Assembly: GCF_021729015.1 (NCBI RefSeq)
Contig: NZ_JAJQQZ010000002.1
Span: forward strand, 186,001-250,000
Source of the DNA: Halobacterium rubrum
Lineage (GTDB): Archaea > Halobacteriota > Halobacteria > Halobacteriales > Halobacteriaceae
Direction: 5' to 3'
Length of the DNA stretch: 64,000 nucleotides
The notes beneath the pieces were generated by a model. The model did not search any database, was not told the origin of the DNA, and worked only from the letters and a program-made list of their open reading frames with translations. Within the stretch, counting starts at the first letter, position 1, and each line of letters begins with the position of its first letter. Position numbers and translations under genes: made by a program. Below, in pieces: positions 30,205 through 41,199 of this stretch.

Positions 30205-31293
30205 CTACTCGAAGACGGCGTCGAAGGCGTCCGCGCCGAGCGGTTCGAACTCGCCGGCGCGGGCGTTCTCCCTGGCGTGCTCGGGGCTGGTCGTCCCCGC
30301 GAGCGAGCTCGTCACGCCGGGCGCGCTCCGCGCGAAGTTCAGGCTGCGCTGGGCGGGCGTGTCCCCGGAGAGCTTCGCGTCGACGTCCTCGGGGACGCCG
30401 GACAGCACCTCGCCCTGCGCCAGACTCGCCGACGTGAACACGCTCAGCCCGGCCTCGTGGGCGTACCAGAGTACGCTCTGGGGGCCGTCGGGGCCTTCCT
30501 GTGACTCGACGGTGAACGCGTCCGCCATGTAGACGTTGAACGGCACCTGGATGGCGCGCAGGTGCGTCGCCGTGTTCCCGACCGTCTTCGCCGCGCTCCG
30601 CGCCCGCGAGATGACTTCCCCGAGGTCGAGGAAGCGCTCGTGGTCCCGCGCCACCCGGAACGCGTCCCACGTCGCCACGCCGTAGTGAACGATGTCTCCA
30701 GCAGCCACGCGCTCCTCCAGCCGCTCGAACGTCGCCTCGAGCTGGTCGTACACCTCGCCTGCGGGCCGTTCGTCGAGCTGGGTCTCGGGGTTGTGGACGT
30801 AGTAGAGGTCGATGGTGTCCAGTCCGAGATTCTCCAGCGACCGGTCGACCATCGCGTCCACGAACCCCGGCGCGATGCTGTGGCTGCCGGCCGCGAGGTC
30901 GTCGGCGTCGACCAGACCGCGGTCGACGAACTCGCGCTGGACGTACTGTGCGGGGTTCTCGGGTCGCTCGCCGTCGAACGGAACGAACCCGCCCTTCGTC
31001 GCGACGAAGGCGGCGTCCCGGTCGACGTCGCTGTCCCGGACCGCGCGCCCGACGACCCGCTCGCTGCGCTGGTGACGGTAGTTCACGGCGGTGTCGAGGA
31101 CGTTCACGCCCGACTCGAGGGCAGCCTGCACGGTCTCGTAGAGCGCGTCGTCGACCGCGTCGGTCGGGTCGCCGAGGTAGGTGCCGAGGCCGACGCTGGA
31201 GACGGCTCGGTCGCCCACGCGCCGGAAGTACGTGCGCGCCGTCTCCTCGCCGAACCGCTCCTTGTAGTCGAAGGTCCCGTCGGCTGTAGCCAT
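30205..31293 (-). CDS. Aldo-keto reductase
   Basis: A 362-residue TIM-barrel NADPH-dependent reductase. Catalytic residues can be placed: Asp and Tyr in VNVLDTAVNYRHQRSE, Lys in FVATKGGF and His in YYVHNPE. The C-terminal SAPGVTSSLAGTTSPEHARE is the cofactor-binding end. It is longer than canonical AKRs because of an insertion of about 45 residues after FVPFDGERPENPAQY. The substrate is unknown. It follows the SDR gene by 20 bases on the same strand, so it may be co-transcribed as the last gene of the series that starts at 41199. Confidence 0.88.
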   Translation of the reverse strand: MATADGTFDYKERFGEETARTYFRRVGDRAVSSVGLGTYLGDPTDAVDDALYETVQAALESGVNVLDTAVNYRHQRSERVVGRAVRDSDVDRDAAFVATKGGFVPFDGERPENPAQYVQREFVDRGLVDADDLAAGSHSIAPGFVDAMVDRSLENLGLDTIDLYYVHNPETQLDERPAGEVYDQLEATFERLEERVAAGDIVHYGVATWDAFRVARDHERFLDLGEVISRARSAAKTVGNTATHLRAIQVPFNVYMADAFTVESQEGPDGPQSVLWYAHEAGLSVFTSASLAQGEVLSGVPEDVDAKLSGDTPAQRSLNFARSAPGVTSSLAGTTSPEHARENARAGEFEPLGADAFDAVFE

Positions 31294-31313
31294 ACCCGTG
31301 GTTCGGCCGGCCG

Positions 31314-32207
31314 CTACTTGTACTCGCCGCGTTCGAACGTCTCGACGGCAGCTCGGTACCCCTCCCTGAACGTCGGGTACGCGAACTCGTAGCCGAGCTC
31401 GCGGAGCCGGTCGTTCGAGCAGCGCTTCCTCGTGCGGAGCCGTCGCTCGGCGGGCGTCGAGAGGTCGCCGGCCTCGATGCGTTCCTCGACGGTCTGCTTC
31501 TCGGGGTGGTCGACGCCGGCCTCGTCGGCGAGCCAGTCGGCGAACGTCCACTTGTCGACCGGCTCGTCGTCCACCGCCAGCAACACGTCCTCGTCGACGG
31601 CCGCGAGCGCGAACCGAACGACGCCGGCGGCGTCGTCACGGTGCACCATGTTCAGGTACCCCTCGGTGACGGGGCCCTCGAGGTACCGGAGCAGCCTGTA
31701 GCGGTCCGGGCCGTAGAGCCCCGCGAATCGCACCACGGTCGGGTCCATCCCGTACACGGGGGCCTCGTCGAGCGCCACGCGCTCCGCGTCGACGAGCACC
31801 TCGGTCTTCTCTGTCGTCGGGTCCAGCGGCGTCGCCTCCTCGACCCAGCCGCCGTCGTGGTCGCCGTACACGCCCGTGCTCGACGTGTAGACGAACTGGT
31901 CGGGGGTGTCCGCACGGGTGCCGAAGTGCTCGACGGCCGTCCGCAGCCCGTCGACGTACACCTCGCGGGCCGCCTCGGCGCCCCGGCCGCCCGAGGACGC
32001 TGCAAACACGACGGCGTCCACGTCCGGCACCGCCGCCAGCGAGTCGGCGTCGGTCACGTCGGCCTGCACGGCCTCGGCGCCCGTCTCGCGGACCGCCGTC
32101 AGGCCGTCCTCGGAGCGCCGGACGCCGACGGCGTCGTGGCCGCCGGCCTCGAGCTGGCGCGCGAGTTCGAGCCCGACGTACCCACACCCGAGGATGGCGA
32201 CGTCCAT
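31314..32207 (-). CDS. Atypical SDR (YeeZ-like) NAD(P)-binding epimerase/reductase-like protein
   Basis: A 297-residue Rossmann protein. VAILGCGYVGLELARQLEAG is the dinucleotide motif (GxGxxG), and VYTSSTGVYGD lies on strand 5. The catalytic YxxxK of classical extended SDRs cannot be found: the matching segment reads PTTEKTEVLVDAERV, without Tyr. It is therefore an atypical SDR of the YeeZ type and may bind NAD(P) without classic chemistry. Its start ATG overlaps the stop of the upstream gene (TGATG), so translation is coupled. Confidence 0.8.
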   Translation of the reverse strand: MDVAILGCGYVGLELARQLEAGGHDAVGVRRSEDGLTAVRETGAEAVQADVTDADSLAAVPDVDAVVFAASSGGRGAEAAREVYVDGLRTAVEHFGTRADTPDQFVYTSSTGVYGDHDGGWVEEATPLDPTTEKTEVLVDAERVALDEAPVYGMDPTVVRFAGLYGPDRYRLLRYLEGPVTEGYLNMVHRDDAAGVVRFALAAVDEDVLLAVDDEPVDKWTFADWLADEAGVDHPEKQTVEERIEAGDLSTPAERRLRTRKRCSNDRLRELGYEFAYPTFREGYRAAVETFERGEYK

Positions 32208-32638
32208 CAGTAGGGGTTCTCCGACGCGATGTACCGGTGGATGCGCGCGTACTCGGCGAGCGTCATCGGCTGCCGGCCCTCCAGCTTCTGCTGGAGCTCC
32301 TTCGCGTCGTAGTCGTCGTCCAGCCCGCTGGCGAGCGCGTCCACGTCCATCACGGCCGAGCTCATCTGGAGCATCAGGTGGTCCTGTACCTCCGCGAGCA
32401 GCGCGTCCGCCGGCGGGTAGTCGTCGCTCGCGGCGAGCACGCCGGCCGCCTCCTCGACGGTGAGCTCGGGCGACTCGCCGTTCGCGAGCGCCTCGAGCAC
32501 GCCTTCCGCCACGCCGGACGCGGCCGTCACGTCGTCCACGCCCGCTTCCTCGACGACGCCCGACAGCGTCGCTTCGTAGTCCGCGCGGACCGCCTCGGCG
32601 GTCGTCTCCTCGGGGTCCCGAAGTTCGTCGGTAAACAC
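32207..32638 (-). CDS. DUF5791-like haloarchaeal protein
   Basis: A 143-residue acidic, mostly helical protein beginning with the GTG at 32638. It includes TTAEAVRADYEATLSGVVEE, a stretch LTVEEAAGVLAASDDYPPAD, and the C-terminal QPMTLAEYARIHRYIASENP. The pattern is that of the DUF5791 family as I remember it; its function is unknown. Its stop overlaps the start of the SDR gene (TGATG), and it lies 23 bases after the long pilus-operon gene, so it might be the tail of that transcript. Confidence 0.68.
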   Translation of the reverse strand: MFTDELRDPEETTAEAVRADYEATLSGVVEEAGVDDVTAASGVAEGVLEALANGESPELTVEEAAGVLAASDDYPPADALLAEVQDHLMLQMSSAVMDVDALASGLDDDYDAKELQQKLEGRQPMTLAEYARIHRYIASENPY

Positions 32639-32661
32639 GCGACACTGTACGCACCCGGGCT

Positions 32662-35631
32662 TCAAGGGGACTGCGCTTGCCAGCCGGGCGACGTCTCCGT
32701 TGCACCCCCGGACGTGTCGCCGACACCCCGTGGACCCGGCGGGACGACGACGCCGACAGTCGCGTTCACGCTGAACGCCACGCGTTCGTTCGCGCCGACC
32801 GGGTCCAGCCGCCCGTCGCCGTTCACGTCGAACGCGACCGACTCGTCCGTCCGGACGTAGGCGGTGCCGTTCCCGCCTCCGACTGGCGACCCGCCCTCGG
32901 CTCGCACCGTGAACGTCTCCCACGAGCCCTGGACGTCGACCGACCACGCGTTCGCCGTCGCGTACCACGACCCGGGCACGGGAGCGAGCGGCAGTCCGGC
33001 CGGCAGGGCGCCCATGTCCGGCACGCCCGCTCGCCGTGCGGCTTCCTCGGCGAGCGCTCCGCTGGTCGCGTCGACGGCCTCCACGGCTGCCGACTCGACG
33101 ACTGCGTGCGCCGCCCGCGACGTCTCCCGGACGAGTGTCGAGTCCACGCGCACCCGTCCCTTCGTGGCCACGCTGTCGGCGTTCGCGCGCAGTCTGGCGT
33201 CCAGCCGGTCCCGCTCGCGGGCGTCGGCGTCCGCGACGGCCGCGGCCTCGGCGGCGACCGCGCGAGCGGCAGAGCCGTTCGCCACGGCGATAGCGCGCCC
33301 CGAAACAGTCGGCCACTGGGCGAGCGCTCGCCGGGTTGCCGCCCGGCGCTCCCGGCTCGAGAGCGAGACTGGCGATTCTGCGAGCACACCGCCGTAGGCG
33401 ACGCGGGCGTCCGCGACGCCGTCTCGGACGGCCTCGCGGAGGTCGTCACGCTGGCGAGCGAGCGTCCCGTTCGCTTCAGCGTCGAGCGCCCGGTTCGTGC
33501 CCGCGAGCGTTTGCCCGGCCCGACTGAGGCCGACGCTATCGGGCGGATCGGGCAGCACCGCCGACACGACCGCTTCGGCGATTGCGCCGTGTGGCGCCGT
33601 GAACCAGTTCTCGTTCCGCGCCGCGAGCGGGTGGTAGGCCGTCGACACGGCTGCCGTCTCCGGCGTCACCTCGCCGAGCGTGAGGTAGGGTGGCGTCCCA
33701 TCGACGGCGGTCACCGGGCCGTCGGCCGCGTCTCCGGCGGTGCTGGCTGGCGGCTGCTGGACCCCGCGGTCGGCCAGTTCGCCGCCGAGCGATGCCACAC
33801 CGCCGCCGCGGTCGCGCTCGCGGAGGTCGGCGACGACCAGTGCGAGGTACGTCTCTCGCGCCGCAGCCGCTGCGCGAGCCTCGACTGTTTCGTACCCGGA
33901 GCCGACGTCGTGCAACTGCCAGACGCGGTCGACGAGCTCGCCTGTCGGGTTGGTGCTGTCCGCCAGGTCACCAGTGGAGAGGTCGACGGTAACGTTCCGG
34001 GCGTCGTCACGCAGGCGAGCGACCCCCCGAGCGGCGCGCTCCCTGACAGACGACGGGACGTCTGGTCGGACGAGCGCGCGCTCCTCGACGTTCGCGTCGC
34101 CGGCGACAGCGCGGCGCGCGACGGCGTCGACACCGCCGGCGTCCCGAAGGAGCCGCCGGGTGGCACAGCGCGCGTACCGCTCGTGGAGCGGCGAGCGAAC
34201 CGTCCGCGCGTCGGCGTCGAGGACGGTGTCACTCTCAGTCGAGACAAGTTCGCGGACCGGCGGGTCGACGCTGTACGCGACGCCGACGGTCACTCTGTCC
34301 GTCGTCCGCGTGGTCTCGGTGACAGTCCGGGTCTCGCTGCCGTTGCTGTACCGGCTCGTTCTGGTCTCGGTCGTGACGACGCGCCGCCCGACTGCGTCGA
34401 CCTGTCGACCAGCGACATCGACACTCCCCGGTGGTGCCGACTCCACGGCCACGTCGGTCGTCTGGCTGGTCCCGACGAGGCGCCAGCCGTCGGGGACCGA
34501 CCCGCTGGTCGTCCGGCGCTCGCGCTCGCGAGTCACCGCCACGGACCGGTCGGCGAGGCCGACGAACGCCGCGTCGAGCGTCGCAGCGAGCGACCGTTCA
34601 GCCGTCCCGTCGACGTACCCCACGAAGGCTCTGTCGGCCGTCGCGTTCACCGAGACCGGGATTGTCTGTTCGCTCACGTCGGCGGCCGCCTTCGCCGCCG
34701 CGAACCCGACGTCGACGGCCGTCGCGCTACCGCCGTGGTCGTCGAGGACGCTCGCCGCCCGGGACTTCGCCGACCGCTTCCCGGCAGCGAGCACGTCCCG
34801 GAGTCCCGTCTCGGCGAACGCGCGAGCGTACGCCTCGCCGCCGGCGTCGTCCTGCCGGCCGAAGGCGGCCGCCTGCTGGTCGAGCAGCGCGCGGTTCGCA
34901 GCCAGCGCCACGTGGCGGTTCGCCAGCACGTTCCCGACCGGCGCGCCGGCGTACTGCAGCGGGCCACGCAGCCAGACGACACGGTGGAGGAGATCTGTGA
35001 GCCGGCGGTCGAGTCCTGGTCCCTCGAAGGCGCCGGTGTCGAGCCGTCGCTCGAACTCCTGGGTCCGGTCGTGGAGCGCGAGCGCGGCGCTCTGCACGCG
35101 AACGGTCGCGGCCCGCTCGCGGCGGTCGAGCGTCCGTCCACCGCGGCGAACAGCCGTCTCGATGCCCGCAACTCGGACTTCGACGGTCGACTCGTCGACC
35201 ACTTCCACGGTCGTCCGGTCGATTGCGCGCTCGGCGTCCCGGGTCGTCTGGACGCGGGGCAGTGACGGCGACGCGGTCACGCCGCCAGCTGTCGCGTCGA
35301 GCGTTCGGAGCGCGCGCTCGACGCGAGCGTAGACTCTGAGCGCCAGCGCGTCGCGGAACGCCGTCTCGTCGCCGAGCGCGTCGCCGTACCGGCTATCGGC
35401 GGGCGAGACGACCGGATTTCTGGCGGCGTTCCGCAGCGCGGTCCGGGCGGCGCTCGCGAGCGCGGCGTCGACGCCGGTCTGCGCCCGGTCGAGTGCGCGG
35501 TCGCCGCGAGTCCGGTCGGGCGCGGTCTCCCGCCCGGCGAGCACGGTTGCGGCAGTCGCGCTCGCCACGAGGAGGACGACACCGACGAGTGCGAACGGGA
35601 CGCGGCCGCGGTCGTCGTCGGCGAGCCTCAC
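32662..35631 (-). CDS. Large TadG-like surface protein of a pilus/secretion-like operon
   Basis: A 989-residue protein with one N-terminal membrane helix (about residues 11-30, preceded by DDRGRVPFALVGVV) and a very long extracytoplasmic part, mostly helical with many Arg/Asp. This RGxxPFALVG start is like the pseudopilin-like TadE/TadG start, with positive charge before the helix. Near the C-terminus a calcium-loop-like DVNGDGRLDP occurs. I see no other domain. The GTG start 35631 overlaps the stop of the upstream gene by four bases (GTGA). In haloarchaeal annotation this position is held by an uncharacterised DUF family (DUF7286, as I recall). I infer a structural or tip subunit of a Tad-like machine. 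Confidence 0.7.
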   Translation of the reverse strand: MRLADDDRGRVPFALVGVVLLVASATAATVLAGRETAPDRTRGDRALDRAQTGVDAALASAARTALRNAARNPVVSPADSRYGDALGDETAFRDALALRVYARVERALRTLDATAGGVTASPSLPRVQTTRDAERAIDRTTVEVVDESTVEVRVAGIETAVRRGGRTLDRRERAATVRVQSAALALHDRTQEFERRLDTGAFEGPGLDRRLTDLLHRVVWLRGPLQYAGAPVGNVLANRHVALAANRALLDQQAAAFGRQDDAGGEAYARAFAETGLRDVLAAGKRSAKSRAASVLDDHGGSATAVDVGFAAAKAAADVSEQTIPVSVNATADRAFVGYVDGTAERSLAATLDAAFVGLADRSVAVTRERERRTTSGSVPDGWRLVGTSQTTDVAVESAPPGSVDVAGRQVDAVGRRVVTTETRTSRYSNGSETRTVTETTRTTDRVTVGVAYSVDPPVRELVSTESDTVLDADARTVRSPLHERYARCATRRLLRDAGGVDAVARRAVAGDANVEERALVRPDVPSSVRERAARGVARLRDDARNVTVDLSTGDLADSTNPTGELVDRVWQLHDVGSGYETVEARAAAAARETYLALVVADLRERDRGGGVASLGGELADRGVQQPPASTAGDAADGPVTAVDGTPPYLTLGEVTPETAAVSTAYHPLAARNENWFTAPHGAIAEAVVSAVLPDPPDSVGLSRAGQTLAGTNRALDAEANGTLARQRDDLREAVRDGVADARVAYGGVLAESPVSLSSRERRAATRRALAQWPTVSGRAIAVANGSAARAVAAEAAAVADADARERDRLDARLRANADSVATKGRVRVDSTLVRETSRAAHAVVESAAVEAVDATSGALAEEAARRAGVPDMGALPAGLPLAPVPGSWYATANAWSVDVQGSWETFTVRAEGGSPVGGGNGTAYVRTDESVAFDVNGDGRLDPVGANERVAFSVNATVGVVVPPGPRGVGDTSGGATETSPGWQAQSP

Positions 35632-36083
35632 GGCGACCACGTCCGGACGGTGACCGAGGCGGTCGTTCCGTTCGCGTCGACGTCGTAGGTCGTCGCAGTC
35701 ACGGCGGCAGCGTCCGGCGGCGGACGGGTGCCGACGCGGAGCGTCGCTGCTCCCGCGGTTGCGACCACTTCGACGCGCCCGCCAGCGTCCCGAACGACGC
35801 CGTCGACTGCTCGCTCGACCGCAGCGACGAAGCCGGGAGTGGTGTCGCGCTCGGCGGCGACGGCGGCGTGCGCGAGCAGTGTCGACACTCTCCCAGACGT
35901 CGTCTCGGACGCAGTCTGACCGTAGTCGACCGTGACCGTGCTCGCGAGCACGGTTCGCGCAGTGGCGTCCGGGTCGGGTGGCTCGGGCTCGCTGCTCGGA
36001 ATCGTGACGAGTGCCACTGCCGCAGCGCTCACAAGCAGTATCGCCAGCGAGACGTCGACGACTGTGCTGATTGCGCGGGTCAC
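35628..36083 (-). CDS. Small single-helix pseudopilin-like protein of the pilus-like operon
   Basis: A 151-residue protein starting with GTG at 36083. The N-terminus MTRAISTVVDVSLAILLVS is one membrane helix with a short positive leader, and the rest is an extracytoplasmic beta-rich domain (GGRVEVVATAGAATLRVG, DANGTTASVTVRTWSP). No prepilin cleavage motif is evident. It overlaps genes on both sides by GTGA, so it is tightly co-translated. I recall this position as DUF7284 in haloarchaea. I infer a minor subunit of the ATPase-driven machine. Confidence 0.72.
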   Translation of the reverse strand: MTRAISTVVDVSLAILLVSAAAVALVTIPSSEPEPPDPDATARTVLASTVTVDYGQTASETTSGRVSTLLAHAAVAAERDTTPGFVAAVERAVDGVVRDAGGRVEVVATAGAATLRVGTRPPPDAAAVTATTYDVDANGTTASVTVRTWSP

Positions 36084-36478
36084 TGCCACACCACCACGGT
36101 GAGCCGGCCCGGCCGAACGGCACTCGACTCGACTCGCACCGGGACGGGACGCGACGCAGTCGACGCCTCGGCCGCCGGCTGAGTGGCGCCAGCGGTCCAG
36201 CTCCGGTCGCCCGCCTCGAGCCTGACGGTCGCCTCGTAGCCGGCCGGAACGGGGCCGACCGACAGCCGGTCCGGCTCCACGACCAGACTCCCGTTCGGGG
36301 TCGCCGCGTCGTCGACGTCGTCGAGGACCTGTGCCGCTGGCGCCGCACCCTCGTCGGCTGGTGGCAGCACGCCCGCCCGGACCGACCCGTAGGCGGCAAT
36401 CGCGAGGCAAAGCGCGAGCACGGCGACCGCGGCCGGCACCGGTTCGACCTGCGCCCTACGCGCCGACGAGCGTGACAT
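36080..36478 (-). CDS. Small TadE-like protein of the pilus-like operon
   Basis: A 132-residue protein. The N-terminus RRAQVEPVPAAVAVLALCLA resembles the TadE start (R-G/A-Q-x-x-E followed by a hydrophobic helix), with the acidic residue just before the helix as in pseudopilins. The C-terminal ~90 residues are a beta-rich extracytoplasmic domain (SLVVEPDRLSVGPVPAGYEA, RLTVVVWQ). It overlaps the preceding gene by 23 bases and the next by 4. I recall this as DUF7285. Its role is inferred from position and the N-terminal motif. Confidence 0.72.
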   Translation of the reverse strand: MSRSSARRAQVEPVPAAVAVLALCLAIAAYGSVRAGVLPPADEGAAPAAQVLDDVDDAATPNGSLVVEPDRLSVGPVPAGYEATVRLEAGDRSWTAGATQPAAEASTASRPVPVRVESSAVRPGRLTVVVWQ

Positions 36479-36926
36479 CGACGCCCCTCCAGGCGACGCG
36501 GCGGACGGTCAGGCGCGACGCGCCGTGGCGCCAGCAGTGCTCCCGGTCGGCCGCGTGCCGGGTCACGGCCCGGAGCGCGGTCGGGCTGTCGAAGACGGCA
36601 TCGGGCGGCGTCCCGTGAAGCACGCGCCAGAGCTGGGTGTCCTCGGTGACGGGGACCACGGGTCCGTAGGTGAACTGCGCGTGGGCGGTGCCGCCGGCGC
36701 TGCGGACGCCGACCTCGTGGGGCGTGAGCCGGACAGCTTCGGCGTCCACCCGCTGGGCCTCGGTGCCGGCGGTGTCGGCGGCAGCAACAGCGTCGACGGT
36801 GCCGGCCAGCGGTGCGGCGCTCGGCGCCGGCGGCGGGGTCGCCGCGAACGCGACGCCGGCGAGGGCGGTACTCACAAGTGACAGCGCGACCAGCAGCGGC
36901 GGTGCGTCGGCGGGCGTGTCGAACAC
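36456..36926 (-). CDS. Small membrane-anchored extracytoplasmic protein of the pilus-like operon
   Basis: A 156-residue protein starting with GTG at 36926. One hydrophobic segment (APPLLVALSLVSTALAGVAF, residues ~9-28) is followed by an Ala/Pro-rich linker (PPPAPSAAPLAG) and a domain with strands such as VRLTPHEVGVRSAGGTAH and LTVRRVAWRGVDVTLVG. No known motif. The gene is 32 bases after the TadC-type gene and overlaps the following one by 23 bases. I recall this position as DUF7283. A lipid or membrane anchor with an exposed domain is the likely topology. Confidence 0.7.
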   Translation of the reverse strand: MFDTPADAPPLLVALSLVSTALAGVAFAATPPPAPSAAPLAGTVDAVAAADTAGTEAQRVDAEAVRLTPHEVGVRSAGGTAHAQFTYGPVVPVTEDTQLWRVLHGTPPDAVFDSPTALRAVTRHAADREHCWRHGASRLTVRRVAWRGVDVTLVGA

Positions 36927-36958
36927 ACCACGGGGTGGTCCCGGTCTCCGATTTAAAT

Positions 36959-38539
36959 CTACAGGAGGATGCCGGCGGCGACGGCCGTCACTGGGTAGAC
37001 GGCGGTCGCACAGAGGACGGCGAGGCCGGCGTGGCGGCCGACGAGCGCGGGGTCCAGGCCGCGGTCGAGGGCGACAGCGAGCCCGGGCAGCAGGACGGCG
37101 AGCCAGACGACGTAGCCGCCGACCGCCAGCGCCAGCGCCGACTGGGGGAGCGCGCTGGCGCCGTCCAGTCCGCGCACCCGGCCCGCGAGCGCGACGGTGA
37201 CGCCGGCGACCAGCGGCGCGTACAGGAGCGCGGTGTGGCGGAGGGTTCGGGTGGTCGCGGCGAACTCCCGGCGGATCTCCCGGTCGAGGTCTGCGAGGTC
37301 GTCGAAGAGGCCGGCGACGTCGACGAGCACGCGACCGCCCGCCGGCCCCCGCTCTGCGGCGCGCACGGCGAGCGCGACGGCGCCCCGGGCTCGCTGGCTG
37401 GGCGTCCGCGAGAGCGGGCCGTGTTCGCCGAGGAACGCCGCTTCGACGTCGACGCGCAGCTGACGCATCCGGCGGGCGGCGTCGGCGAACGCCTCGCCAG
37501 TCGGGCCGTCGAGCGTGTCGCCGACGTCCGCGACGGCGGCCTCGACGGCCTGGCGTTCGCCGAGCCGGTGGCCGAGCAGCGAGAGCGCGTCCGCGAACCC
37601 GGCTTCGAGGTCGCGGGCGCGCTCCCGGAGGTCGCAGGCGGGCCGGAACCAGACGGCCAGCGCCGCGCCCGTCGGCCAGCCGGCGACCAGCAGCGGCGTC
37701 GCCCAGCCCGGCAGCAACGCGGTGGCGGCGGTCGCGGCGAGCAGGGCGGCGCCGGCAGCCAGTGCGGCGTCGCGCCGGCGGCCGTCGAGCGCCGGGTGGT
37801 CGCCGGGAACGGGCGCCGGCGGGAACGCGACCGGGCGCCGCGCGAGCAGCCACGCGGCGACCGCGAGCACCGACAGCGGGAGCACGAGGTCGTAGCCGAG
37901 GACGAACGTGCCGACAGTCAGCGGGACGCCGGCGCTGGCGGCGGCCGGCACGACGCCGACGAGCGCGAGCGGGAGCACCACGCCGAACGCGTAGACGGCC
38001 GTCGTGGGGCCACGGACAGCGTCGGCGTACTCGCTGGTGCGCTCGCGGGTACCGGCGACGACGGCCGCGAGCGCCCGGTCGAGGAGTCGTTCGCGGTCGC
38101 CCGCTGGCGCGTCGACGCTAGCGGCCACGAGTGCGGCTGCTCGCTGGAGGGAGGGCAGCGAGTCCCGCCACTCGTCGGCGAACGCCGCGAACCCGGCGGT
38201 CGGTTCGCCACGGGCGGCCCGGACGTGCGCTGCGAGGCTGTCGGCGAGCCGGCCGGTGCCGGCGTCGGCGGCGAACGCGCTCGCGGACTCGATGGCGGGT
38301 GAGGACCGGAGCCCGAGCACGACGAGCGCGACGAGGTCCGGGGCGGCGCCGAGGCTGCGCGAGCGGCGCGCGACCTCGTGGAGCTGTGGCGCGTACAGCG
38401 CGCCGGCAGCGGTAGCAGCGGCGAGCACGCCGACGGCAGCGCCAGTGTAGGGTGCGAACCGCGAGAGGACCGCAGCGAGCAGCCCGCCGGCCGCTGCTGC
38501 AGTGAGGGCGACGCGCTCGCTGTGGTCGAGGTCGGTCAT
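36959..38539 (-). CDS. TadC/PilC-type membrane platform protein
   Basis: A 526-residue membrane protein with two T2SSF-like halves. Around residue 75-130 the motif region LRSSPAIESASAFAAD resembles the cytosolic helical bundle, and a second occurs in LGERQAVEAAVADVGDTL. About seven to nine hydrophobic helices surround these. The family is the inner-membrane core on which the PilB/TadA ATPase acts to assemble pili, flagella or secretion filaments. Here it lacks the usual archaellum partner genes. The start ATG overlaps the ATPase gene stop by four bases (ATGA). Confidence 0.86.
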   Translation of the reverse strand: MTDLDHSERVALTAAAAGGLLAAVLSRFAPYTGAAVGVLAAATAAGALYAPQLHEVARRSRSLGAAPDLVALVVLGLRSSPAIESASAFAADAGTGRLADSLAAHVRAARGEPTAGFAAFADEWRDSLPSLQRAAALVAASVDAPAGDRERLLDRALAAVVAGTRERTSEYADAVRGPTTAVYAFGVVLPLALVGVVPAAASAGVPLTVGTFVLGYDLVLPLSVLAVAAWLLARRPVAFPPAPVPGDHPALDGRRRDAALAAGAALLAATAATALLPGWATPLLVAGWPTGAALAVWFRPACDLRERARDLEAGFADALSLLGHRLGERQAVEAAVADVGDTLDGPTGEAFADAARRMRQLRVDVEAAFLGEHGPLSRTPSQRARGAVALAVRAAERGPAGGRVLVDVAGLFDDLADLDREIRREFAATTRTLRHTALLYAPLVAGVTVALAGRVRGLDGASALPQSALALAVGGYVVWLAVLLPGLAVALDRGLDPALVGRHAGLAVLCATAVYPVTAVAAGILL

Positions 38540-40332
38540 CGGAACTGGCTCGCCCGGGCGTCGACAGCCGACCGGACGTCGCCGTACGTCTCGCCGGGCC
38601 GAGCGAGCGCGTCGACGGCGTGGCTGTTCCCCCGTGCGATTCGACCCGTCGGTGCTGCGCCGTCGCCGTCCTCGTCGGCGAAGATGGCGGCGTCGCCGTC
38701 GGCGGTGACCTCCTCGATTCGCGTGACGCGCCGGCCCGCTTCGGTCTCGGCGGCGGTGACGACGAGGTCCGTCGCGGCGAACGACGAGCGGTCGACGCCG
38801 AGGTCGGCGACGACGCGCTCGCGGACGCCGGCGGCACCCTCACCGTGGATGGTGCCGAGGACGGTGGCGTCGCTGGCGCCGACACGCATCGCCTCGTAGA
38901 GCACGCTTGCCTCCTCGCCGCGCACCTCGCCGACGGCGACGGCGCCGTCGCCGAGGCGGAGCGCGGTCCGGAGCGCGTCCGCCATCGAGACGTCGGCACC
39001 GGCGGTGTCCTCGCCGGCGTACAGCGCCTGGACGTCGCGGTCGTCGGCGCGGAGCGCGCGAACGGGAAGCTCGGGCGTGTCCTCGATGGTGACGAGTCGC
39101 GTCTCGCGGGCGAGCGCCCACAGCGTCGCGCCGAGCAGGGTCGTCTTCCCGGCGCCCCTCGCGCCGGCGAACAGGACTGCCGCGCCCCGCGAGACGGCTT
39201 CCGCGAGGAACCCGGCGGCGTCGGGGCGGAGTGTGCCGCTGGCGACGAGGTCCGGGAGCTGGAACGGGTCGGCGTCGTGGGCGCGGAACGCGAACCCGGT
39301 CCCGTCGCTCACCGGGTCGGTCACGCCGGCCACGCGCACCCGCCCGGTCCCGCCGAGGCCGTCGACTGTCGCGTCGAGGGTCGGCGACGCGCGGGAGAAC
39401 GGCCGGCCGGTCTCGGCGCGCAGCCGCGACGCCAGCCTGCTCGCGCCCCGCTCGGTGAACCGGACGTTCGTCCGCACCGACTCGCCGTCGACGGTCGCCC
39501 GCAGCGGGCCGTCCGCGACCGGCGCGGACGCGAACACGTCGCTGACGCGCGGGTCGGCGAACAGGTCCTCGAGGACGCCGAACCCCCTCGTGTGCTTCCG
39601 GAGCGCGTCGGCCAGCACCTCGCGGTGCTCGCCGGCGACCTGCCGGACTGCCCGGCCGGGGGCGTCCTCCCCGTCCGGGACGGAGCCGTCGGCGAGCCGC
39701 CTGCGGGCGGCGGCCAGCAGCCGCCACTCGTCGCGGGACAGGTCGTAGGCAGGTGGGAGGACGTGGTAGACCGGGACGCCGTCTGGGACGTCGTACTCGC
39801 GGACGGTCGCGCCCGTCTCGAGGTCGCGGGTGTCGCGGAGTCGGCCGTCCCGCGGCGGCGTCGGGTCGACGCGCGCGTCGGCGAGCGACGGCCCGAGGTG
39901 TGCCAGCAGCGCGTCGTATTCCGGGATGCCGGCCCCGACGGCGCCGAGTCCGGTCTCCGCGGCGAGGTCGGCGACTGGGCCCGCTCGCCCCGTCGCCTCC
40001 CGGGCGGCCGCCAGCGGGTCGCGGCGGGCTCGCTGGGCGAGCCGGTCGTCGCGGTCCCCGGCACGGGCGGCGAACCGGCCCGCGGCGGTGAACAGCGCGG
40101 CCGCCTGCTCGCCGAACGCGCGCTCGAAGCCGCCGGCGTCGACGACGATTCGGGCCGGCTCGTGGCGGCGGGAAGCGGCAGCCAGCGTCTCGCGGCAGGC
40201 CGGCTCGGCCGTGAGTGCACCGCCGCCGGGACAGTCGGCGGCGGCCACCCGGAGGGCGCCGGCGTCCAGCGTCGCCTCACACCGGCAGTCCGAGTCGGGC
40301 GACGCCCGAACGCGGTCCAGGAGTGCACGCAT
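38536..40332 (-). CDS. PilB/TadA-type secretion ATPase with N-terminal Cys cluster
   Basis: A 598-residue motor ATPase. Walker A is FAGARGAGKTTLLGAT. The Walker B/Asp-box region reads GAVAVGEVRGEEASVLYEAM, and the His box is TVLGTIHGEGAAG, all typical of T2SS/T4P/Tad ATPases. The N-terminal ~200 residues are lineage-specific. They hold four Cys (C16, C18, C34 and C46; e.g. CRC and DCPGGG), which may bind a metal. A helical NTD-like region (LLAAARRRLADGS) follows. The start ATG at 40332 overlaps the upstream gene by 56 bases, an unusually long overlap, so a later start cannot be fully excluded. Confidence 0.9.
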   Translation of the reverse strand: MRALLDRVRASPDSDCRCEATLDAGALRVAAADCPGGGALTAEPACRETLAAASRRHEPARIVVDAGGFERAFGEQAAALFTAAGRFAARAGDRDDRLAQRARRDPLAAAREATGRAGPVADLAAETGLGAVGAGIPEYDALLAHLGPSLADARVDPTPPRDGRLRDTRDLETGATVREYDVPDGVPVYHVLPPAYDLSRDEWRLLAAARRRLADGSVPDGEDAPGRAVRQVAGEHREVLADALRKHTRGFGVLEDLFADPRVSDVFASAPVADGPLRATVDGESVRTNVRFTERGASRLASRLRAETGRPFSRASPTLDATVDGLGGTGRVRVAGVTDPVSDGTGFAFRAHDADPFQLPDLVASGTLRPDAAGFLAEAVSRGAAVLFAGARGAGKTTLLGATLWALARETRLVTIEDTPELPVRALRADDRDVQALYAGEDTAGADVSMADALRTALRLGDGAVAVGEVRGEEASVLYEAMRVGASDATVLGTIHGEGAAGVRERVVADLGVDRSSFAATDLVVTAAETEAGRRVTRIEEVTADGDAAIFADEDGDGAAPTGRIARGNSHAVDALARPGETYGDVRSAVDARASQFR

Positions 40333-40768
40333 GGGCCGGTTTGCTCCCGTCCTCGCCGATAAACCCTCGTAGCGCGACGACGACCGGGCTCCCGCGTGTC
40401 TCGACGTACACGAGTGTGACGGCGCCGCGCAGCGACTCACGGTCCCCGCAGACCCGGACGGGCACCGGGAGGCGGCGAGTGGTCGCTGCGCCGTTCGCCG
40501 TGGTCGCGACGAGCCTCGGGGGCCGAGGTTCGACAGTCAGTGTCGCGTCCGGCGGGATGTCGAGACGAATGGTCCGGCGCGGGGCGGTGGCGACCCGGTC
40601 GCCGGGGTCGCCGCGCCGGGTGAGCGCGTCGACGGCGTCGGCAGTGTGGTCGACCGCAGCGTCGACGCTGGCGGCGTCCCGCTGGTCGGTCGCGTGCTCG
40701 ACGGCCGGCAGGCTGACAGCAGTGAGCGCGAGCGCCGCAAGCACGGCCGCGACCACCCGGACGGTCAC
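40277..40768 (-). CDS. Membrane-anchored protein next to the pilus ATPase
   Basis: A 163-residue protein. The N-terminal helix (VRVVAAVLAALALTAVSLPA) anchors it, and the rest is an extracytoplasmic domain with strands (TIRLDIPPDATLTVEPRPPR, GAVTLVYVETRGSPVVVAL). Its start overlaps the coiled-coil gene by four bases, and its last 56 bases overlap the ATPase start, so it is in the same operon. I recall this as DUF7311 in haloarchaea. No function is known; position suggests a regulator or a minor subunit of the machine. Confidence 0.7.
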   Translation of the reverse strand: MTVRVVAAVLAALALTAVSLPAVEHATDQRDAASVDAAVDHTADAVDALTRRGDPGDRVATAPRRTIRLDIPPDATLTVEPRPPRLVATTANGAATTRRLPVPVRVCGDRESLRGAVTLVYVETRGSPVVVALRGFIGEDGSKPAHACTPGPRSGVARLGLPV

Positions 40769-41199
40769 AGCGACGACCGCAGCCGGTCGAGCATGGAGCC
40801 CGCTTCGTCCGTCGTGGCGGTGTCGTCGGCCGGGTCCTCCGCGTCGCCGGCTGCGTCGTCGTGGCTCCCCCGCTCCGCGGGCCGCGTGGACCGAGCGGGC
40901 GGGCGTGCGGTCGGCTGGTCGTCCAGTCGCTCGACGGCAGCACGGGCGGCGTCGGCGCGCCGCTCCACGCGCTCGTTCACGTGCTCGATCTCGCCGACGT
41001 AGCCGTGCAGCGACTGCACGGTCGCCTCCAGCGCGTCGACGCGCTCGGTCAGTATCTCGAGGTCGGCGGCGACGTCGTCGAGCTGTCGCTGTACGGCCGC
41101 CGCCTCCGAGAGGTCGAGTGCCTCGCCGTCAGTCACCGCGCGCTCGACAGCCGCCAGCCGCGCCGCCAGTGAGTCGTCTTCGTCGTCGTTGTCGGTCAC
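40765..41199 (-). CDS. Coiled-coil protein, first gene of the pilus-like operon
   Basis: A 144-residue cytoplasmic protein with GTG start at 41199. It has a long coiled coil (about residues 9-90: LAARLAAVERAVTDGEALDL, then LEILTERVDALEATVQSLHG), an Arg/Pro/Asp-rich linker and a short C-terminal helix AGSMLDRLRSSL. No membrane segment. The stop overlaps the next gene by four bases. I recall the family as DUF7310. Its position as the first gene and its coiled coil suggest an adaptor that docks on the motor ATPase or connects it to the cell skeleton. This is inference. Confidence 0.68.
   Translation of the reverse strand: MTDNDDEDDSLAARLAAVERAVTDGEALDLSEAAAVQRQLDDVAADLEILTERVDALEATVQSLHGYVGEIEHVNERVERRADAARAAVERLDDQPTARPPARSTRPAERGSHDDAAGDAEDPADDTATTDEAGSMLDRLRSSL

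Follow-up and report, generated by a model that had tools for sequence, protein, structure and literature searches.

An eight-gene operon on the minus strand (positions 41199 to 32662) of the window, a 64,000-nucleotide stretch (C2:186001-250000) of the 3.07-Mb genome of the haloarchaeon Halobacterium rubrum, probably encodes the motor and the minor subunits of a Tad-like archaeal type IV pilus whose major pilin, DUF7382, would be supplied in trans, a reading to which we give a probability of about 0.68. In the proposed mechanism, a hexameric ATPase would drive filament assembly via a diverged TadC platform, and the major filament subunit would be a stand-alone PilA-like DUF7382 protein cleaved by the single PibD peptidase of the genome. 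Assembly would be primed, and the filament capped, by DUF7311, DUF7283, DUF7285, DUF7284, and DUF7286 acting as minor pilins or pseudopilins, among which DUF7286, with its 989 residues, is a possible exposed tip or adhesin-like subunit, and the motor may be regulated by the coiled-coil protein DUF7310 and a four-cysteine domain of the ATPase. The system would most likely function as a surface filament that may serve in adhesion, with DNA-related or sensing roles as further possibilities.

Operon layout, conservation, and motor

All eight genes proposed in the first-pass annotation have open reading frames at the positions given there, in the order DUF7310, DUF7311, ATPase, platform, DUF7283, DUF7285, DUF7284, DUF7286, and every product except the platform scored well above the cut-off in a Pfam scan (the six DUF families and, for the ATPase, T2SSE). 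Most junctions had been described as 4-base overlaps, which is exact at four of the seven internal ones (DUF7310/DUF7311, ATPase/platform, DUF7285/DUF7284, and DUF7284/DUF7286); the remaining three are a 56-base overlap between DUF7311 and the ATPase, provided that the latter starts at ATG 40332, a 32-base gap between the platform and DUF7283, and a 23-base overlap between DUF7283 and DUF7285. The single-helix proteins number five rather than the four first counted, as DUF7311, ahead of the ATPase, is one of them.

Gene order was compared in 54 Halobacteria neighbourhoods and in 80 separately fetched, species-labelled haloarchaeal loci; Haloferax volcanii is not among the latter, which include H. 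mucosum, H. larsenii, H. prahovense, H. gibbonsii, and H. marisrubri. The order of all eight genes is near-invariant in both sets, with DUF7283 present in 54/54 and 80/80 loci, and the few exceptions were mostly read as contig ends or spurious reading frames, the motor lying behind the module at one locus. Because the same order recurs in 54 + 80 loci, a chance arrangement is excluded. The small proteins keep their place next to the motor, and the idea of a conserved unit of unassigned function held up when gene order was checked across haloarchaea.

The co-occurrence of motor and module is similarly tight. The ATPase clade, counted with profile A2 at E≤1e-60 and matched by hand to the list of DUF7286 genomes, is present in 215 of 292 Halobacteria genomes, and DUF7286 in 224. 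All 215 ATPase-positive genomes carry DUF7286, and all 68 genomes without DUF7286 also lack the ATPase clade (phi 0.92). Nine genomes have DUF7286 without the ATPase, three of them from the window's own genus and bearing only a C-terminal part of DUF7286 together with other remnants. At four genomes' loci (G180, G032, G115, and G068) the DUF7283-7286 module and the ATPase lie at separate sites and both are retained; since they are kept together even as physically separate pieces, module and motor appear to form one machine. The system, usually in a single copy, was found in 57 genera and in roughly three of every four haloarchaeal species sampled. It also reaches methanogens, which we label Methanocella-type or Methanosarcina-type as inferred from gene content: the DUF7286-bearing genomes of these types encode an orthologous ATPase (E from 1e-113 to 1e-125, their other ATPases scoring about 1e-39 or weaker), and three methanogen relatives without DUF7286 have only the other ATPases.

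Several variants were also seen. The sister species G012, G066, and G234 (loci L241, L242, and L243) have only the C-terminal part of DUF7286 ahead of three genes that follow the operon in the window, encoding DUF5791, a short-chain dehydrogenase/reductase (SDR), and an aldo-keto reductase (AKR), with DUF7310 remaining in two of them; judging from the gene content, the absence of the ATPase, the platform, and most of the module reflects operon decay or internal deletion. The module is present twice in G140, G115, and G076, and seven loci (L117, L118, L121, L122, L123, L125, and L129) carry a diverged DUF7283-7285-7284-7286 variant with no recognisable ATPase or platform within the 20 kb read.

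Both motor proteins are what they were first taken to be. The PilB/TadA(CpaF)-type secretion ATPase (38536..40332, 598 residues from ATG 40332) matches T2SSE at E=3e-21, carries the Walker A motif GARGAGKTT, and has GspE2 (2oap), CpaF, and FlaI as its nearest solved structures. In a tree with the ATPases of the window's own genome, the ATPases of this system form one clade with a support of 100/100 on a long branch, outside which fall the five other T2SSE ATPases of the genome, including the archaellum ATPase. The N-terminal domain, separate from the Walker-motif part, contains four cysteines (C16, C18, C34, and C46) that are invariant in 24 haloarchaeal sequences, and at least four cysteines are found in the N-terminal part of 9/9 methanogen orthologs read. 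Their position in a cytoplasmic domain suggests a predicted metal site; disulfides were suggested for the ATPase cysteines by Makarova et al. 2016 (PMC4858521). The platform (36959..38539, 526 residues) is a diverged TadC/PilC-type membrane protein that itself stays below the Pfam T2SSF cut-off (E=0.013), and its identity comes from its orthologs, of which 19 out of 28 match T2SSF (E=5.9e-6 at best), and from an hhalign comparison that aligned 204 columns with the TadC proteins of the same genome at E=7e-5. Because Pfam T2SSF misses the platform in this genome, a PilB of this clade could be catalogued as lacking its PilC partner; a review (PMC4371748) mentions an orphan PilB in H. volcanii, which might conceivably be such a case. 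The conserved gene order is headed by DUF7310 (40765..41199, 144 residues; PF23991, E=3e-25), a cytoplasmic coiled-coil protein.

A candidate major pilin encoded in trans

No pilin gene was found inside the haloarchaeal operon in any locus read. The lack of a major pilin and a prepilin peptidase, which the first-pass annotation had singled out, stands for the immediate surroundings. It is not distinctive, because the haloarchaeal PibD is unlinked and the candidate major pilin is encoded in trans. The genome has a single Peptidase_A24 of the PibD type, on a different contig from the operon (G000:C1:224139-224528, G000 being the window's genome), and in archaea one peptidase usually serves all prepilins (PMC4371748).

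The candidate pilin came from the methanogen relatives, where alone a pilin adjoins the motor. Directly after the ATPase and platform genes, three Methanocella-type genomes encode a small protein whose N-terminus has the motif (G)VEGLPVRLIVVLV. This protein has one homolog in the window's genome (43% identity, E=1e-10), encoded at G000:C2:536218-536574, on the same contig as the operon and unlinked to it, and this product belongs to the PilA-like Pfam family DUF7382. At E≤1e-6, a cut-off picked after viewing the list, DUF7382 occurs in 208/215 ATPase-positive and 9/77 ATPase-negative genomes (phi 0.86, 292 genomes), with Fisher p-values inflated by common ancestry. DUF7382 and the ATPase have been lost jointly in several families, for example in G018, G043/G072, G065, and G067. 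A gene for a HerA-like ATPase adjoins DUF7382 in divergent orientation in 11/11 haloarchaeal loci read (e.g. L250:1433-3025 (+), contig C2 of G000 at about 536 kb), and a homolog of it lies near the ATPase and platform genes in three Methanocella-type genomes. The HerA-like ATPase is a possible further component of the system.

The single-helix subunits

Of the small module proteins, DUF7311 (40277..40768, 163 residues; PF23993, E=3e-17) and DUF7283 (36456..36926, 156 residues; PF23954, E=2.5e-42) each have a single N-terminal membrane helix and are candidate minor subunits, prepilin-like in the case of DUF7311. DUF7285 (36080..36478, 132 residues; PF23956, E=1e-27) and DUF7284 (35628..36083, 151 residues; PF23955, E=7e-12) have prepilin-like N-termini ahead of the helix, RRA/QVEP and TRA/ISTVVD, respectively, in agreement with the pseudopilin-like starts noticed at first. 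We scored the class III motif with a simplified version of the FlaFind rule in 80 orthologs per family and found it in 66/80 for DUF7285 and 43/80 for DUF7284. The RAQV of DUF7285 and the RAIS of DUF7284 resemble known processing sites, namely RAQI in EpdA and the RAVS cleaved by PibD in H. volcanii PilA4-6 (PMC4371748). Every one of the five module proteins at L130 and L131, two methanogen loci, is class III-like by eye (Gly/Ala, charged context, directly before the helix), as are at least three at L134; in the methanogens the counterparts of DUF7311 and DUF7283 were assigned partly by gene position, with profile support for DUF7311 and none for DUF7283; the Methanocella-like DUF7311 counterpart (N-terminus DEKG/ADFL) matches the DUF7311 profile in hhalign with a probability of 63 and E=7e-5. 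These N-termini support a common prepilin-like origin of the module proteins that would later have eroded in haloarchaea. Profile-profile comparison among DUF7310, DUF7311, DUF7283, DUF7285, DUF7284, and DUF7286 revealed no homology, every probability being below 6%.

Structure prediction, which had been proposed for the small proteins, gave a confident fold for a DUF7284 ortholog and no significant match for DUF7284 or DUF7286. The AlphaFold2 model of the 290-residue ortholog (predicted local distance difference test score, pLDDT, 90.8; predicted template modelling score, pTM, 0.82) comprises a helix at residues 5-27, a low-confidence linker, and a mixed alpha/beta domain. The window's DUF7284 is C-terminally shorter than most haloarchaeal orthologs (about 290 residues) and lacks the C-terminal part of this domain. 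Ribosomal protein S3 was rejected as a relative of DUF7284, its best VIA Z of 6.7 lying within the stated noise. DUF7286 (32662..35631; PF23957, E=5e-253), whose length of 989 residues was confirmed, is the tip or adhesin candidate and combines helical and beta regions with a single N-terminal helix (RGRVPFALVGV) and a strongly conserved C-terminal beta region. Its AlphaFold2 model is less certain (pLDDT 78.8, pTM 0.49) and has no significant fold match in Foldseek, and a sequence search of solved structures was also empty. A weak but recurrent likeness of residues 360-512 (approximate limits), predicted as a four-stranded sheet and a helix, to the chaperone SecB was not significant (Foldseek E of about 0.1, at best 0.09, with a probability up to 0.97; VIA Z 6.1, root-mean-square deviation 3.1 over 97 residues) and was not used.

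At two Methanosarcina-type loci (L132:7956-18422 and L133:7240-11900), a DUF7286-like protein of about 1350 residues is followed by at least one gene for a secreted protein of about 205 residues with a C-terminal helix. At L132 the C-terminal part of DUF7286 recurs in two short open reading frames, each followed by a gene for such a protein, with no motor nearby. We take these secreted proteins to resemble the sarcinarray family.

Related systems, alternatives, and significance

The operon had been proposed as a possibly distinct system. This part of the proposal did not survive comparison with subclade 4F of Makarova et al. 2016 (PMC4858521), each described feature of which has a counterpart here, and the operon is for this reason most likely a member of subclade 4F, assigned by described features rather than by the published tree or arCOG tables. 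As described there, the N-terminal domain of the subclade's ATPase is variable and rich in cysteines, an S-layer-like protein is frequent, a cytoplasmic coiled-coil protein occurs in halobacteria only, and the PilA-family major pilin is encoded mostly by a stand-alone gene, but beside the motor in Methanocella arvoryzae. The cysteine-rich ATPase N-terminus, the TadC-like platform, the coiled-coil protein, the large S-layer-like protein, and the mostly stand-alone PilA-family pilin are all shared with the present system, and both occur in Halobacteria and in Methanocella/Methanosarcina relatives. DUF7310 is the probable counterpart of arCOG07564, the coiled-coil subunit of halobacterial 4F loci, and we infer that DUF7382 is arCOG02981, the PilA-family major pilin of the subclade. 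To that description the present analysis adds that motor and five-protein module are strictly coupled, that the system extends in single copy across 57 genera, and that DUF7382 and the HerA-like ATPase are neighbours.

Other pilus systems are more distant. The PilB3-C3/PilA adhesion pili of Haloferax volcanii (PMC4371748, PMC6491452) likewise combine a PilB/PilC motor pair with pilins and PibD in trans, but PilB3 is reported to belong to clade 2, whereas the ATPases studied here form a separate, strongly diverged clade beside the genome's other ATPases, and unlike PilB3-C3 the motor is encoded with five conserved single-helix proteins. The Halobacterium salinarum pil-2/H. volcanii pilB2 locus by cetZ2, reported as subclade 4C, co-transcribes an ATPase, a platform, and several prepilin-like genes, three of them FlaFind-positive (PMC4292770, PMC9856176); because its 6.9-kb unit holds seven reading frames, it has little space for a 3-kb DUF7286 gene. 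The bacterial Tad/Flp pilus is similar in its ATPase near GspE2/CpaF, its TadC-type platform, and its minor pilin-like proteins, one of them large. The Pfam scan of the operon proteins found no TadE/F/G match and no Flp, TadZ, or secretin, and the TIGR03819 TadA model scored the ATPase at 134 bits against a cut-off of 373; by sequence, the operon falls outside the bacterial Tad family.

Several observations weigh against a pilus with DUF7382 as its major subunit. Haloarchaeal DUF7283 and most DUF7311 proteins lack the simplified class III motif, and DUF7286 fails it with an Arg at +1 (RG/RVPFALVGV). Predicted DUF7284 is not a canonical pilin lollipop: a disordered linker joins its short helix to a mixed alpha/beta domain, and the model has no match at E≤0.001 in the PDB or among viral models. 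Seven ATPase-positive genomes have no strong DUF7382 match, and the species in the co-occurrence counts share ancestry, so that Fisher values overstate independence. The placement in subclade 4F relies on the published description rather than on a comparison with that paper's own sequences or arCOG lists, and our literature search turned up no report of filaments, expression, or phenotypes involving these genes.

Rather than a pilin set, the five module proteins could be membrane-anchored proteins of non-pilin fold that form a new kind of envelope complex around a subunit of about 1000 residues, assembled or actuated by the type IV motor for secretion or surface sensing, which we consider unlikely. 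Another explanation, a type II secretion-like endopilus in which the motor moves a short five-protein pseudopilus to secrete or expose surface proteins, without a long filament and with DUF7382 serving another system, would account for the pilin-free haloarchaeal operons, for the likeness of the proteins, several of them small and single-helix and one of them large, to a pseudopilin set, and for the non-pilin-like DUF7284 domain. It is unlikely, however, given the DUF7382-type pilin that immediately follows the platform in three Methanocella-type genomes and its co-occurrence across Halobacteria; moreover, archaea lack the outer membrane and secretin through which such a machine would push, and a conserved substrate gene was not seen at the loci. 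The very large size and strong conservation of DUF7286, and the Methanosarcina-type homologs that adjoin arrays of secreted proteins of about 205 residues with the motor absent nearby, would also fit a membrane-anchored surface complex rather than a pilus, with DUF7286 associated with the S-layer or envelope and assembled in a motor-dependent manner, as proposed for the Sulfolobus bindosome; the link to the DUF7382 pilin and the fact that in two Methanocella-type genomes each of the five module proteins has a prepilin-like N-terminus make this distinctly improbable. DUF5791, SDR, and AKR do follow closely, as first reported, with DUF5791 and SDR tightly spaced behind the operon and nearly always syntenic (SDR usually overlapping DUF5791), but their membership in a surface-modification or glycosylation-linked secretion unit is hardly credible and was rejected, since 28 of the 29 genomes checked for DUF5791 have it, among them 19/20 without DUF7286, and displaced DUF7283-7286 modules travel without it, so that DUF5791, SDR, and AKR are neighbours rather than components.

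As a predicted archaeal pilus type, the class is ordinary; what is striking is its spread, the size of DUF7286, and the lack of any reported experiment. The features that remain unusual are the 989-residue DUF7286 and the confidently predicted DUF7284 fold with no significant match in the PDB. Surveys may under-count the system because the diverged platform escapes the standard Pfam model in this genome. The machine persists in some three quarters of the haloarchaeal species examined, as well as in several methanogen lineages, yet our literature search found no experiment on its gene families and no paper naming DUF7283 to DUF7286, DUF7310, DUF7311, or DUF7382. Connecting the operon with a single unlinked pilin (DUF7382), a single HerA-like ATPase, and a single peptidase narrows the system to a few genes amenable to deletion in Haloferax or Haloarcula, which opens the function of this class, predicted in 2016, to direct testing.

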